DNA of 64,000 bases from contig DATNQD010000063.1 of the NCBI GenBank assembly GCA_036702865.1, positions 62,001 through 126,000 on the forward strand, read 5' to 3'. The position numbers and the translations under genes were made by a program. Source of the DNA: Trichocoleus sp. GTDB taxonomy: Bacteria > Cyanobacteriota > Cyanobacteriia > Elainellales > Elainellaceae. Each line of letters opens with the position of its first letter. The stretch's first letter is position 1. Positions 3,154-11,343 of the stretch are shown here, piece by piece. The notes below the pieces were generated by a model. That model was given only the letters and a program-made list of their open reading frames with translations. It was not told the origin of the DNA and made no database searches.

Positions 3154-3230
3154 GACAAATCTCTAAACCGATCGATTTGAACGAGTGCAGCCAAGCTTCT
3201 AAAATTGAAAGCTGACTCTGGAGGATGCTT

Positions 3231-4640
3231 ATGTCTGCTGCCAATTCTCAAACACGCCTTGAAACAGACAGCATGGGAGCGATCGAAGTCCCTATTGATT
3301 GCTATTGGGGAGCACAGACACAGCGATCCTTGCGCTACTTTGCGATCGGGGACGATGTCATGCCCCGAGAGATGATTCGGGCGATCGGAATTCTCAAGCG
3401 ATCGGCAGCAGTGGTGAATCGGGCATTGGGAAAGCTTGCTGCAGAAAAAGCAAATTTAATGATTCAGGCAGCAGATGAAGTGATTGCGGGTGAACTTGAT
3501 GACCATTTTCCGCTGCGAATCTGGCAGACGGGCAGCGGTACGCAGACCAATATGAACGCTAACGAAGTGATTGCCAATCGGGCGATCGAACTGGCAGGAG
3601 GAGTTCTGGGCAGTAAACAGCCAGTTCACCCCAATGATCACGTTAATTTATCGCAGTCCTCGAATGATACTTTTCCAACCGCAATGCATATTGCAGCCGT
3701 GGAAGAAATTGTGCATCGGTTAATCCCGGCAGTGCAGCAGTTGCGCGATGCGTTGGCAGACAAGGCGGAGGCGTTTCAAGCAATTATCAAAATCGGGCGT
3801 ACCCACTTAATGGATGCTGTGCCACTGACACTGGGACAGGAATTCGGCGGTTATGTCTCGCAGCTTGACAAAGATTTAGTCAGAATTGAAGCTGCTTTGG
3901 CTGATCTGTATGAATTAGCGATCGGCGGCACAGCCGTTGGTACAGGTTTGAACACTCACCCAGAATTTGCTGATCGAGTCGCAGCCGAAATTGCTGAGCT
4001 CACCCAGTTACCCTTTGTCTCTGCCCCAGATAAATTTGCAGCGCTTGCAGCCCATGATGCGATCGTCATGTCGAGCGGCACACTCAAAACGCTTGCCTGT
4101 TCTCTAATGAAAATTGCCAATGATATTCGGTGGTTAGGGTCAGGTCCACGCTGTGGCTTAGGCGAGTTGCAGTTGCCGGAAAATGAACCGGGATCATCAA
4201 TCATGCCGGGAAAAGTTAACCCAACCCAATGTGAAGCGATGACCATGGTTTGTGCTCAGGTCATTGGTAACGATACAGCGATTGGCATTGCTGGAAGTCA
4301 GGGCAACTTTGAACTCAATGTGTTCAAGCCCATGCTGATTTTTAATTTGCTCAATTCGATTCGGCTGCTGTCCGGAGCCTGCACCATGTTCACGGCTCAT
4401 CTGGTGGTGGGAATTCAGCCTAATCGCGATCGAATTGATTATTTCCTCACAAACTCTCTGATGCTTGTCACAGCTTTGAATCCGCATATTGGTTACGATG
4501 CGGCGGCTAAGGTTGCCAAAAAAGCTTTTGCAGAAGGTAAAACGCTGCGTGAAGCCTGCGTCGAACTTGGGTTTTTATCGGCAGAGGCGTTCGATCGATT
4601 GGTGCGCCCAGCGGAGATGATTTCACCTGAGAAGGGATAG
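3231..4640 (+). CDS. fumC: Class II fumarate hydratase FumC
   Basis: FumC interconverts fumarate and malate and recycles fumarate from purine and arginine synthesis in cyanobacteria. The 469-residue product carries the fumarase/aspartase signature [11 protein letters not shown] near residue 321, which holds the catalytic mobile loop. It also has [14 protein letters not shown] and the [13 protein letters not shown] substrate-binding segments. An ATG at 3225 is in frame, but GGAGG at 3220-3224 is correctly spaced only for the ATG at 3231. The gene is transcribed alone, divergent from the quinone oxidoreductase. The length is typical of oxygen-stable class II enzymes. Confidence 0.96.
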
Positions 4641-4823: not shown

Positions 4824-6008
4824 ATGACTTTATCGACTGGAGCAACGCTACAAAACGGCAAGTATCTGGTTCAGGCAATTCTGAGTCGAAGTGATTTTGG
4901 GCTAACTTACCGGGCAAGGCATACTTATCTTGACCAGACGGTAATTCTGCAAAGCTTGAATGAGGTAACTCAGGAGCGATCGGATTTTACTCAATTGCGG
5001 CAGCAGTTTGCGACTGGAGCGAGGCAGCTTGCTAAATATCCAGCAAATCATCCGCTCAGAGCCCTAGACTACTTTGAAGAAAATGGGTTGCCCTTCGTGG
5101 TGCTGCAATTTGTGGCAGAGCAAGCCCCAAAATTAAGCGATTGGTTTAATTTGCCGCTGGAACCATCCACCCCGACAAACGGAGAAACCCCGGCAGCAGC
5201 TCCATTATCTGAAGCTCCAAGAGAACTATTAACCTCTCAGCCTCCCCTAAATGAGACGGTTCGCCCAGAGGTAACTAAGCAAGTTGTCTCGCCCGAACCC
5301 ATCTTTGTTTCCATTCCGCCGATCGATTCGGGCGCTCATCCAAATCCGGTTGTCTCTACCAATGGTTGTGCTGTTTCACCCAGTCCGCGTCAAAAGCGAC
5401 GGTTTGCATCGCCCTCTTTGTTAATCGTGACAGCCTTGATTGGTGCATCGGTTGGGGCTGGTATGGGGTTAGCATTACGGCTTCAGCCTAAATCTCAGTC
5501 TGGCGAAGCGGCGCTTGATCTCAGGCATGGCTTATTTACGCGAGAACAGTCTTTCCCTTCTGAGTCAGACTGGCCGATTTCTGAAACGCCTGCTCCCGTA
5601 GCTCCCCCAGCACAAGCATCCGAACGCCCAAACCCTTCAACAAATTCAGCGTTTAGCAGCGGTACATTTGATGCTCAACCCTTCCCGACGCAGCAATATT
5701 ATCCACCCGCCTCACTGAATCCTGCCCCTGCCCTGGAAACACCGGATAGTGGAACGATCGCCCCACCCGAAACGCAGCGCAAGACCCAAACTCAAGACAG
5801 TTTGCCAGATCCAGCGATCGAGAAACCCCTAACCTCTGCTCCAACCATTGACACAGCTCCTCCTATCGCTCAGCCTCGTGCCGTTCCTGTGGCTCCTGCC
5901 CCTGCGCCTGCTCCGGTCGCACCTCCCCCTGCCCCGGTGATTGAAGCTCCTGCTCCTGCTGCGCCTGCTGAAGCGCCAATTCGCAAGCCTCGTGTAATCG
6001 ACCAGTAA
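4824..6008 (+). CDS. Membrane-anchored protein with kinase N-lobe remnant and Pro-rich tail
   Basis: Residues 1-110 resemble the N-lobe of a cyanobacterial Ser/Thr protein kinase: a degenerate glycine loop (LSRSDFGLTYRARH), then TVILQSLNE, where the usual catalytic Lys of the VxIK strand is Gln43. The helix and hinge segment follow (DYFEENGLPFVVLQFV). The C-lobe with HRD and DFG motifs is absent, so it cannot be an active kinase of normal architecture. A Pro/Ser-rich linker leads to one membrane segment at about 193-218 (LLIVTALIGASVGAGMGLAL). A long Pro/Ala-rich tail (about 240-394) follows. It is possibly a scaffold or signalling pseudokinase. No partner gene is adjacent. Confidence 0.7.
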   Translation: MTLSTGATLQNGKYLVQAILSRSDFGLTYRARHTYLDQTVILQSLNEVTQERSDFTQLRQQFATGARQLAKYPANHPLRALDYFEENGLPFVVLQFVAEQAPKLSDWFNLPLEPSTPTNGETPAAAPLSEAPRELLTSQPPLNETVRPEVTKQVVSPEPIFVSIPPIDSGAHPNPVVSTNGCAVSPSPRQKRRFASPSLLIVTALIGASVGAGMGLALRLQPKSQSGEAALDLRHGLFTREQSFPSESDWPISETPAPVAPPAQASERPNPSTNSAFSSGTFDAQPFPTQQYYPPASLNPAPALETPDSGTIAPPETQRKTQTQDSLPDPAIEKPLTSAPTIDTAPPIAQPRAVPVAPAPAPAPVAPPPAPVIEAPAPAAPAEAPIRKPRVIDQ

Positions 6009-6303: not shown

Positions 6304-6687
6304 ATGACAGCTTCCGAACTTCACCGCCCCTCATCGTCCGAGCCTGAACAGGATGCCTTAACACAGCCCCACAACCATGATCATCCCCATTTGGAAGAAA
6401 CAACTCATCATGCCCATGTTCATAGTGCTGAGTCGTTACGGCGTGTAGTCAACCGTCTCTCTCGCATTGAAGGACATATTCGCGGGATCAAAATGATGGT
6501 GCAGGAAAATCGTGCCTGTCCCGATGTACTGGTACAGATTGCGGCAGTTCGCGGCGCACTCGATCGCGTTTCTCGATTGATCTTAGATGAACATCTGACA
6601 GAGTGTATTGCCCGTGCTGCTAAGGAAGGCAACATTGCCGAAGAGATCGAAGAACTAAAATCAGCCCTCGATCGCTTCTTACCTTAA
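6304..6687 (+). CDS. CsoR/RcnR-family metal-sensing repressor, InrS-like
   Basis: This 127-residue all-helical DUF156 protein should act as a tetrameric DNA-binding repressor released by metal. RRVVNRLSRIEGHIRGIKMMV is diagnostic. Candidate metal ligands are His40 (HVHS), Cys72 (NRACPDV), and His97 with Cys101 (DEHLTEC). This H-C-H-C pattern matches cyanobacterial nickel sensor InrS rather than copper CsoR. The N-terminus has an unusually His-rich stretch (eight His between residues 23 and 40), which could buffer or bind metal. No exporter gene is adjacent, so its target lies elsewhere. The metal assignment is inferred from the ligand pattern. Confidence 0.85.
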   Translation: MTASELHRPSSSEPEQDALTQPHNHDHPHLEETTHHAHVHSAESLRRVVNRLSRIEGHIRGIKMMVQENRACPDVLVQIAAVRGALDRVSRLILDEHLTECIARAAKEGNIAEEIEELKSALDRFLP

Positions 6688-7227: not shown

Positions 7228-7878
7228 TTATTTTACCCACTCATTGAGAGAGTGATGGGCTTGTGGTGGAAACTTCAACGGACTTTTCCGACGAGATAAG
7301 TATTGGTTGAGAGCATAGGACATATCAGCACGAGTCATTGGACTGAGGGGATCAATTCGCTGTTCCTGACGAATGTTGATAAATCCTTCAGCCAGGGCTG
7401 TTGCCATCGGCTTCCTTGCCCACGCCGGAATTTGAGCAGCATCAGGGTACTTTGCCAAAATCTCTGTGACAGTTGGTTCAGAGAACTGAAAGATTCCGTG
7501 TGCTTGAGCCAAAATCGAGAACGCTTCAGCACGGGTCATCCGTTGGTCTGGGAAAAACCTGCCTTGGCGATAGCCAGTCATGATGCCATTACTGAGAACA
7601 AGCTGGATATCTCGATATGCCCAATGCGTTGAAGAAACATCTTGGAGGGGGATTTCGGATGTGGGTGGTTGTTTATCGAGGTGAAAGGTTTTAACAAGAA
7701 TACTTGCCAGTTCGGCTCGGCTCAGCAAAGTGTTGGTTTCGGACAGATCTTTTGAGAAGAAACTGAGCCCAGATTTTATCCCTAAATTGACAGGATCATG
7801 CGTCGGCGCAACCTGAGCAACTGCTGCCAAACTAGACAACAGAAAGGTTAAGGATAGGGCACCAATAAATCGCTCCAT
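7228..7878 (-). CDS. Secreted S-layer homology (SLH) domain protein
   Basis: The 216-residue product starts with a signal peptide (MERFIGALSLTFLLSSLAAVAQ). It contains SLH repeats at about 45-110 (RAELASILVKTF, then VSSTHWAYRDIQLVLSNGIMTGY) and 112-200 (RMTRAEAFSILAQAH, then ARKPMATALAEGFIN and TRADMSYALNQYLSR). SLH domains bind secondary cell-wall polymers attached to peptidoglycan. There is no porin beta-barrel after the SLH region, unlike the large cyanobacterial SLH-porins, so it is probably a small periplasmic wall-binding protein. Confidence 0.8.
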   Translation of the reverse strand: MERFIGALSLTFLLSSLAAVAQVAPTHDPVNLGIKSGLSFFSKDLSETNTLLSRAELASILVKTFHLDKQPPTSEIPLQDVSSTHWAYRDIQLVLSNGIMTGYRQGRFFPDQRMTRAEAFSILAQAHGIFQFSEPTVTEILAKYPDAAQIPAWARKPMATALAEGFINIRQEQRIDPLSPMTRADMSYALNQYLSRRKSPLKFPPQAHHSLNEWVK

Positions 7879-9990: not shown

Positions 9991-11343
9991 GTTACTCGCG
10001 TCATTCTCGTTCGGCATGGAGAAAGCACCTATAACGTTGAGCGTCGGGTGCAGGGGCATTGTGATTTATCGAGTCTGACGGAAGCGGGTCAGGCAGGAGC
10101 ACAGCAGGTTGGAATCGCGCTGCAGGGGATCTCTTTTACTGCGGCTTACAGCAGTCCGTTGAAACGAGCCAGTCAAACAGCACAAATCATTTTGTCTTGT
10201 ATCAGCGAAAATGGTGGCTCGACGCCTGAACTGCGGTTTACAGACAATCTGAAAGAAATTAATTTGCTGCAATGGGAAGGGTTGACCTTTGAAGAAGTTG
10301 AGCAGCAGTTTCCAGAAGGGTATCAAATCTGGCAGACTCGCCCTCAAGATCTCTGCATGAAGCAGGACAGCCCGAACGAAGCACAGGATTTTTACCCAGT
10401 ACGGGCACTGTATGAGCAGGCGCGGCAATTTTGGCAGGAGGTCTTGCCCAACCATGACGGAGAAACAATTCTAGTTGTTGCTCACAGTGGGATCAACCGC
10501 TGTTTGATTACGGCAGCAATGGGTTTAGATGTTGAGAGCTACAAGGCATTGCATCAGTCAAACTGCGGCATTAGCGTCTTGAACTTTGCGGGTGTCTTAG
10601 GCGAACAGGTGCAGCTTGAATCCGTGAATCTAACGGCGCACTTGGGCGATCCCTTGCCCAAACCTCGCAAAAACCAGGGGCTTCGCTTCTTGCTGGTGCG
10701 GCATGGCGAAACCAATTGGAATCGAGACAAGCGGTTCCAGGGACAGATTGATGTACCGCTCAACGAGCAGGGACGGTTTCAGTCAGGTCAGGCAGCCGCT
10801 TTCCTGAAAGACATCCCCATTGATCGCGCTGTCACTAGCCCGATGCTTCGCCCGAAAGAAACCGCAGAAATTATTCTGCAAAATCACCCAGACATAACGC
10901 TGGAAACTGACGATCGCCTCTGCGAAATTAGCCATGGACTCTGGGAAGGCAAATTAGAAGCCGAAATTGAAGCTGCTTATCCAGGTGAACTGAAGCGATG
11001 GCAACAGGTTCCTGAAACCGTACAAATGCCTGAGGGGGAAAACCTGCAGCAGGTTTGGGATCGAGCCACTGTTGCCTGGGATGCGATCGTTGATTCTACG
11101 CCAGTGAACCCCGATCGAATTACAACGGTTCTGGTTGTGGCGCATGATGCGGTCAATAAAGCAATTCTGGGCTATTTGATGGGTCAAGGGCCTGCTTCTT
11201 TTTGGGCATTTAAGCAGGGCAATGGAGCTGTTACAGTCATTGACTATCCCCAGGGAGCAGCCGGCAAGCCCTTAATTCAGGCGCTCAATATTACGATCCA
11301 TTTGGGTAGCGTACTGGATAAGACTGCGGCTGGAGCTTTGTAG
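9988..11343 (+). CDS. Two-domain histidine phosphatase (phosphoglycerate mutase-like)
   Basis: Two histidine-phosphatase domains lie in tandem in 451 residues. The first has VRHGESTYN with catalytic His10 and VVAHSGINR. The second has LLVRHGETNWN with His239 and VVAHDAVNK, so both active sites look intact. The first RHG motif is only included if translation begins upstream of the first ATG. The frame is closed by TGA at 9967-9969, and the only near-start codon in between is CTG at 9988. It lies 7 bases after a strong Shine-Dalgarno (GGGGAGGG, 9973-9980). Substrates of the cyanobacterial two-domain family are not settled; annotations as phosphoglycerate mutase should be read loosely. Confidence 0.88.
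   Translation: MVTRVILVRHGESTYNVERRVQGHCDLSSLTEAGQAGAQQVGIALQGISFTAAYSSPLKRASQTAQIILSCISENGGSTPELRFTDNLKEINLLQWEGLTFEEVEQQFPEGYQIWQTRPQDLCMKQDSPNEAQDFYPVRALYEQARQFWQEVLPNHDGETILVVAHSGINRCLITAAMGLDVESYKALHQSNCGISVLNFAGVLGEQVQLESVNLTAHLGDPLPKPRKNQGLRFLLVRHGETNWNRDKRFQGQIDVPLNEQGRFQSGQAAAFLKDIPIDRAVTSPMLRPKETAEIILQNHPDITLETDDRLCEISHGLWEGKLEAEIEAAYPGELKRWQQVPETVQMPEGENLQQVWDRATVAWDAIVDSTPVNPDRITTVLVVAHDAVNKAILGYLMGQGPASFWAFKQGNGAVTVIDYPQGAAGKPLIQALNITIHLGSVLDKTAAGAL

Follow-up and report, generated by a model that had tools for sequence, protein, structure and literature searches.

Why should a cyanobacterium keep half of a protein kinase domain on a membrane anchor? The question is raised by one gene in the window, i.e. 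the whole stretch of 64,000 nucleotides of Trichocoleus sp. DNA analysed here. A first-pass annotation had read its product as an N-lobe-only pseudokinase fixed to the membrane, and this core reading is borne out by the predicted fold, structural alignments (Z 13.5 and 12.2), conservation, and dN/dS of 0.08-0.29. The long clean frame reported there is also real, with 394 aa, an ATG start and no internal stop. The gene is hereafter called the half-kinase, and its parts and neighbours are listed in Table 1.

Table 1. Features of the half-kinase gene and its surroundings in the window.
Feature	Position	Strand	Basis
Half-kinase gene, 394 aa	4824..6008	+	ORF with ATG start and no internal stop; orthologues; dN/dS
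Kinase N-lobe with hinge, residues 1-98	4824..5117	+	AlphaFold; fold search; profile match to S. aureus PknB (E 0.0028)
Lys13, first residue of putative back-to-back dimer triad	4860..4862	+	Lys in 88% of 26 half-kinases; aligns with Arg of S. aureus PknB
Leu36, assigned to the Leu33 position of PknB	4929..4931	+	92% of 26 half-kinases vs 69% of 29 intact kinases; aligns with Leu of S. aureus PknB
Gln43 at beta3 Lys position	4950..4952	+	Lys in 0 of 26 half-kinases, Gln in 92%
Asp82, assigned to the Asp76 position of PknB	5067..5069	+	88% of 26 half-kinases; aligns with Asp of S. aureus PknB
LSDWFNLPLEP, residues 104-114, likely remnant of last C-lobe helix joined to hinge	5133..5165	+	W-(L/F/M/I) pattern counts
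Pro/Ser-rich linker, residues 115-190	5166..5393	+	Low confidence in model
Transmembrane helix, residues 198-219, with GxxxG (G211, G215)	5415..5480	+	G211 and G215 invariant in 17 aligned half-kinases
Conserved motif FTREQSFPSESDWPISE, residues 238-254, predicted outside cytoplasm	5535..5585	+	dN/dS 0.03-0.16 in 3 of 5 pairs
Pro/Ala-rich tail, residues 259-394	5598..6005	+	Composition (136 residues, with 34 Pro and 26 Ala)
Fumarase (fumC) gene, recurrent upstream neighbour	3225..4640	+	Pfam; synteny
CsoR/InrS-type metal-sensing repressor gene, recurrent neighbour	6304..6687	+	Pfam PF02583; synteny
S-layer-homology protein	7228..7878	-	PF00395
GTG-start ORF, apparently two tandem phosphoglycerate-mutase-type domains	10048..11343		Read from translation

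Fold and membrane part of the half-kinase

The product matched no Pfam family at E<=1. The only NCBIfam matches were a weak one of residues 8-111 to a lanthionine synthetase model, in its kinase part (E 0.01), and one of residues 190-249 to a pilin model (E 0.018), both far below the curated cut-offs. The genome has 34 Pkinase (PF00069) matches, 32 of them over the cut-off; the half-kinase is not among them and gave no profile match over the domain. Coverage of the C-lobe is zero, HRD and DFG are absent, and the domain is not bilobal. A split gene with the C-lobe encoded next door was ruled out: the window's contig carries 0 of the 34 Pkinase matches, and thus no gene for a separate C-lobe was detected next to the half-kinase.

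An AlphaFold model of residues 1-120, built from an alignment of 13 sequences, reached a mean pLDDT of 87.9 and a pTM of 0.81. In this model, residues 1-95 form the five strands (14-22, 26-33, 38-45, 80-86 and 89-95) and the alphaC helix (55-71) of a kinase N-lobe. The structural comparison proposed with the first-pass annotation favours the same assignment, as both Foldseek and VIA-align rank kinases first: the best Foldseek matches are kinases, including PpkA (5x1r, E 1.1e-5), and the VIA-align Z values are 13.5 for PpkA, 12.2 for PknB of Mycobacterium tuberculosis and 12.0 for the pseudokinase domain of MviN (3otv). In addition, a profile of the 13 sequences detected S. aureus PknB and PpkA (E 0.0028 and 0.0035, respectively). 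As modelled, the half-kinase has a Hanks-type N-lobe fold (PF00069 class), and the combination that marks a bacterial pseudokinase, a kinase fold with lost catalytic residues, is present for the N-lobe only.

The full-length model is less certain (mean pLDDT 60.7); beyond the N-lobe it contains one long helix, residues 198-219, and the rest is of low confidence. The half-kinases carry on average 2.9 Lys/Arg residues before the membrane helix and 1.7 after it, a bias which suggests, not strongly, that the N-terminus lies inside.

Conservation pattern of the N-lobe

Both catalytic residues of the N-lobe are gone in the window's half-kinase, where Gln43 occupies the beta3 Lys position, as the first-pass annotation had stated, and Gly65 the alphaC Glu position. 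The glycine-loop and hinge pattern, which was said to be kept, is mostly not: the loop reads S-R-S-D-F-G in the window versus G-Q-G-G-F-G in an intact homologue, and the gatekeeper and hinge are mostly lost in the group. Positions that reach 85% conservation or more among 29 intact kinases were compared, and such a position was counted as lost when fewer than 30% of the half-kinases bear the intact residue. With related genomes counted as separate, as in all residue percentages given here for the 26 half-kinases, the 29 intact kinases and the relatives in family f16, the intact residue is retained in the 26 half-kinases in 0% at the beta3 Lys, 27% at the alphaC Glu, 0% at the HPN His and 8% at the gatekeeper Met, and also lost are two hinge residues, Asp (19%) and Tyr (4%), one Ala of the alphaC helix (23%) and the Leu that follows the hinge (15%). 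Ten further N-lobe positions are half-kept. Nearly all the lost positions presumably lie along the ATP cleft or on the side towards the absent C-lobe.

Meanwhile, the core residues together with K13, D82, F84, E86 and V93 are kept in the 26 half-kinases, and L36 is better conserved than in intact kinases (Table 1). We take L33D and D76A to be dimer mutants of PknB, and Arg10 to be the dimer-interface residue that is matched to K13. The corresponding PDB titles name the L33D (3ori) and D76A (3orm) mutants of M. tuberculosis PknB, and a review, in the part of its text available, agrees in its account of the N-lobe mutants and describes N-lobe dimers that allosterically activate PknB and PknD (PMC3601408). 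Catalytically dead full-length kinases of family f16 retain K13 and D82 to the same degree (88% and 92%), so conservation of these two residues may reflect a role in folding. As a strict K-L-D set, the triad occurs with about the same frequency in half-kinases (20 of 26) and in intact kinases (20 of 29); the other half-kinases have R-L-D in two cases and a broken triad in four (KLE twice, KMD and ASE). Conservation of K13, L36 and D82 was therefore set aside as proof of dimerisation, since it occurs in dead relatives and the triad is about as common in intact kinases.

As a separate observation on family f16, full-length kinases in genomes such as G235, G279, G264 and G114 seem to lose their catalytic residues singly, with HRD kept and the DFG Asp lost, and some f16 kinases have a beta3 Lys to Gln change in addition to the loss of the DFG Asp.

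Distribution and selection

A search of 60 relatives gave 51 matches, full kinases included. The half-kinase layout was found in 29 of the 35 sampled genomes of the window's family (f1), in 20 genera, and all 29 cases of a 291-genome class-wide sample fall within f1; the genome searches scored at most 6 or 20 candidates per genome, and further copies could be missed. The search proposed with the first-pass annotation, for the same domain order across cyanobacteria and for its gene neighbours, thus finds this order within the one family, with recurrent neighbours. Carriers include Drouetiella hepatica, Phormidium tenue FACHB-886, Pegethrix bostrychoides, Elainella and Microcoleus sp. FACHB-1515. 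The N-lobe and helix share one open frame in 26 of the 29 (19 genera), and the other three are split frames in draft genomes (G030, G014 and G028). Among the remaining six f1 genomes, three of one genus have a full-length degenerate kinase, G007 has a gene without the N-lobe, and a profile search for the tail module gave no match in G033 and G035.

Of five pairs of related genomes, one was saturated for the N-lobe; the other four gave N-lobe dN/dS values of 0.10, 0.29, 0.15 and 0.08. Values could be obtained for three of the five pairs in each of the other parts, the rest being saturated, and were 0.03-0.16 in the motif, 0.19-0.38 in the linker and 0.24-0.27 in the Pro-rich tail. These ratios show that, judged by divergence between related genomes, the half-kinase gene is under purifying selection. 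A recent pseudogene is ruled out by dN/dS well under 1.

One gene family with four states of the kinase domain

The membrane helix and the EQSFPxxxWP segment are common to half-kinases and full-length homologues. A 70-position profile of the two matched in 150 of the 291 genomes, once in each among the 20 or fewer candidates scored. The 150 tail-bearing genes comprise 29 intact, 67 full-length degenerate, 29 half and 23 kinase-less genes and two cut by contig ends, where intact means that Lys, HRD Asp and DFG Asp are present, a class read from residues which leaves activity putative. Seven genes, five of family f13 called half automatically and two called partial, were placed with the full-length degenerate ones, as 270-390 residues precede their tail; frame-split upstream remnants moved G042 to the intact class (Lys unchecked), G026 to the degenerate class, and G030, G014 and G028 to the half-kinases. 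Family f26, in which the tail match is weak, accounts for 16 of the 29 intact genes. The strict motif is present in 8/29 intact, 38/67 degenerate, 27/29 half and 20/23 kinase-less genes. No kinase remnant was found upstream of the 23 kinase-less genes within the searched distance of up to 2.2 kb, which was less near contig ends (e.g. G199 and G251).

The family has a characteristic neighbourhood, consisting of ribH (lumazine synthase) and a gene for a polyA-polymerase/CBS/DHH protein, which was found with members of all four states. Counted in fetched stretches of unequal length, the polyA-polymerase/CBS/DHH gene (by Pfam) accompanies 9/29 intact, 31/67 degenerate, 9/29 half and 17/23 kinase-less genes (for the half-kinases the raw count was 10/29, and 9/29 is safer as the G011 hit, with an end branch of 5.64, is spurious), and ribH is near 8/29, 28/67, 3/29 and 13/23, respectively. 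The window's half-kinase is located elsewhere, between fumC and the CsoR-type gene. Other half-kinases are likewise found close to fumC, CsoR or both, or have a CobO-type gene next to them, and the gene therefore seems to have moved within f1. The CsoR/InrS-type repressor of the window has a His-rich N-terminus.

The shared tail, and for the orthologues the shared neighbourhood, show at the level of sequence comparison that the half-kinase descends from a Hanks-type Ser/Thr kinase. The first-pass annotation considered it a deliberate fusion and not a truncation; the fusion is not supported, and the exclusion of a truncation fails by the refuting condition given with the annotation, as homologues with an intact or degenerate C-lobe and the same helix and EQSFPxxxWP tail occur at the locus where some half-kinases still lie. 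A linker, one membrane span and a Pro-rich tail do follow the N-lobe, as it described, but they have not replaced the C-lobe, because the helix and tail are shared with full-length homologues.

With regard to side members of the family, kinase-less single-span proteins (frames of 93-301 aa; L153-L171, L173, L174 and L176) bear a helix and EQSFPxxxWP-like module, and many such genes are at the ribH/polyA-polymerase locus. In three kinase-less examples scanned, the membrane module matched nothing in Pfam and NCBIfam.

Excision of the C-lobe and number of losses

The C-lobe was excised in frame between the hinge and the last helix, and the membrane helix and tail are original, not substituted. 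The segment LSDWFNLPLEP is similar to the sequence DWLxLLP with which the last C-lobe helix of full-length kinases ends, and is likely to be the scar of the excision. A W-(L/F/M/I) pair occurs shortly after the hinge in 25 of 26 half-kinases, whereas 1000 shuffled versions of these stretches gave 5.4 on average and 13 at most, and in the rest of the linker the pair occurs in 0 of 26. The pattern W-(L/F) with a hydrophobic residue three positions further on was found in 75 of 94 full-length homologues, a count that left out G042, G026, G030, G014 and G028.

The N-lobe tree (104 columns) places the 26 unbroken half-kinases on one side of a branch with an SH-aLRT of 91, which is not starred and has no bootstrap; shuffled labels need a mean of 21.3 changes on this tree. 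On the tree of the neighbouring polyA-polymerase/CBS/DHH protein (61 rows, the G011 hit with its end branch of 5.64 left out), the four states need 11 changes versus a shuffled mean of 27.5; the kinase-less state needs four (two forced by starred branches) and the six half-kinases on it also four (three forced). These six alone were rejected as a clade (p under 1e-60), and the six with G007 were not (AU p 0.34). A single excision with later loss of the N-lobe in G007 is therefore compatible with the trees, though not proven. Loss of the whole kinase domain very likely occurred more than once.

Possible role of the retained N-lobe

Our tentative proposal, which we hold at somewhat short of an even chance, is that the half-kinase acts as a non-catalytic, membrane-tethered docking partner of other kinases and pairs with them through the back face of its N-lobe. 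A partner that has only to dock would be expected to carry an N-lobe of this kind, with its cleft lost and its back face kept, on a GxxxG helix. According to this scheme, in the line leading to most of f1 a membrane-anchored Hanks-type kinase would have lost its C-lobe in frame, so that the hinge now runs into the last helix, and the retained N-lobe, devoid of the residues for normal ATP binding and catalysis, would have become a folded docking domain. The GxxxG helix would hold this domain at the membrane, with the conserved EQSFPxxxWP segment outside. The back face could then pair with full-length kinases, and with itself, like the N-lobe dimer of PknB and PknD, and, depending on what binds the outer motif, the pairing might switch kinases at the membrane or recruit them there. 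Potential partner kinases are not lacking, because 32 Pkinase matches over the cut-off are present in the genome; against the proposal, no partner kinase is linked to the gene (none on the window's contig, and one tail match per genome among the 20 candidates scored). The domain must also be dispensable somewhere, as G007 has no N-lobe and G033 and G035 no tail match. We regard as unlikely, yet worth stating, the stronger version in which a clade-wide N-lobe-only protein is a dedicated membrane-tethered allosteric partner on the back face of full-length Ser/Thr kinases, having arisen by excision of the C-lobe from a receptor-like kinase, with the outer motif still setting when or where it acts.

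A different account, also possible but rather below even, is that the helix and EQSFPxxxWP module is the working part, from which the kinase was lost stepwise in many lineages, so that the half-kinase is a passing stage with a residual scaffold role. The existence, among the 150 genes with the tail, of 23 that lack an in-frame kinase domain and have no detected remnant upstream agrees with this, as do the retention of the strict motif in 20 of these 23, the position of 17 near the polyA-polymerase/CBS/DHH gene, the 67 full-length degenerate genes, and the loss of the N-lobe as well in the f1 genome G007. However, the N-lobe is under constraint (though the linker and Pro-rich tail are constrained too), its presence in 29 of 35 f1 genomes and 20 genera is long for a transient, and the pattern of kept and lost sites follows the fold. 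Selection on the N-lobe is thus explained less well by a working module alone, and this account and the docking proposal may both be partly true.

It is improbable that the N-lobe serves as a generic scaffold that keeps a cytosolic non-kinase protein at the membrane, e.g. a metabolic enzyme or the CsoR-type repressor encoded next door. In the window the CsoR-type gene is adjacent to the half-kinase, 10 other f1 genomes have such a gene in its vicinity, and pseudokinases, to judge from literature titles, often act as scaffolds; but the neighbour differs in other f1 genomes (CobO-type in 4, polyA-polymerase/CBS/DHH in 9), and a gap of 295 bases separates the half-kinase from CsoR. Ordinary truncation or a functionless pseudogene, for which the full-length kinase ancestor and the three split frames could be cited, is very improbable given one frame for N-lobe and helix in 26 of 29 half-kinases from 19 genera and dN/dS well under 1 in the pairs tested.

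Comparison with known systems

To our knowledge, known pseudokinases are mostly bilobal dead enzymes. Our literature search, including the available text of PMC12599244, PMC2176072 and PMC1262709, returned no N-lobe-only bacterial pseudokinase family. According to the part of it available, a 2007 survey of cyanobacterial kinases excluded 17 proteins without all or part of the catalytic domain (PMC2176072), and N-lobe-only proteins may therefore have been seen earlier and left out.

The closest known relatives are the full-length Hanks-type kinases (PF00069) at the ribH/polyA-polymerase locus of other cyanobacterial families, which have the same N-lobe, helix, EQSFPxxxWP segment and Pro-rich tail; they keep the C-lobe, whereas the window's half-kinase is without it. 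Within this one gene family the membrane module is constant while the kinase domain on it is intact, degenerate, halved or missing, and the purpose of each piece could thus be tested by swaps between living relatives. The CP1 pseudokinases, as described in the available text of PMC12599244, are degenerate Ser/Thr kinases of cyanobacteria and proteobacteria which have no membrane helices and are linked to COG3899. In contrast, the half-kinase has the helix at residues 198-219 and no further domain in Pfam or in the model, and is not a CP1 pseudokinase.

MviN (Rv3910) is similar in being a membrane protein with a dead kinase fold, to which the N-lobe model aligns with a Z of 12.0 (3otv). MviN keeps both kinase lobes, whereas the C-lobe is absent in the half-kinase. 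Its pseudokinase forms a back-to-back dimer, and the family constraints lie in the N-lobe, as far as the available text of PMC12599244 goes. M. tuberculosis PknB aligns with a Z of 12.2, and its L33 and D76 are taken to match L36 and D82. PknB and PknD are active bilobal kinases with an N-lobe dimer, whereas a dimer of the half-kinase is putative, by analogy with them; with an N-lobe alone in 20 genera, the half-kinases would offer a natural test of whether back-to-back contact suffices to regulate bacterial kinases.
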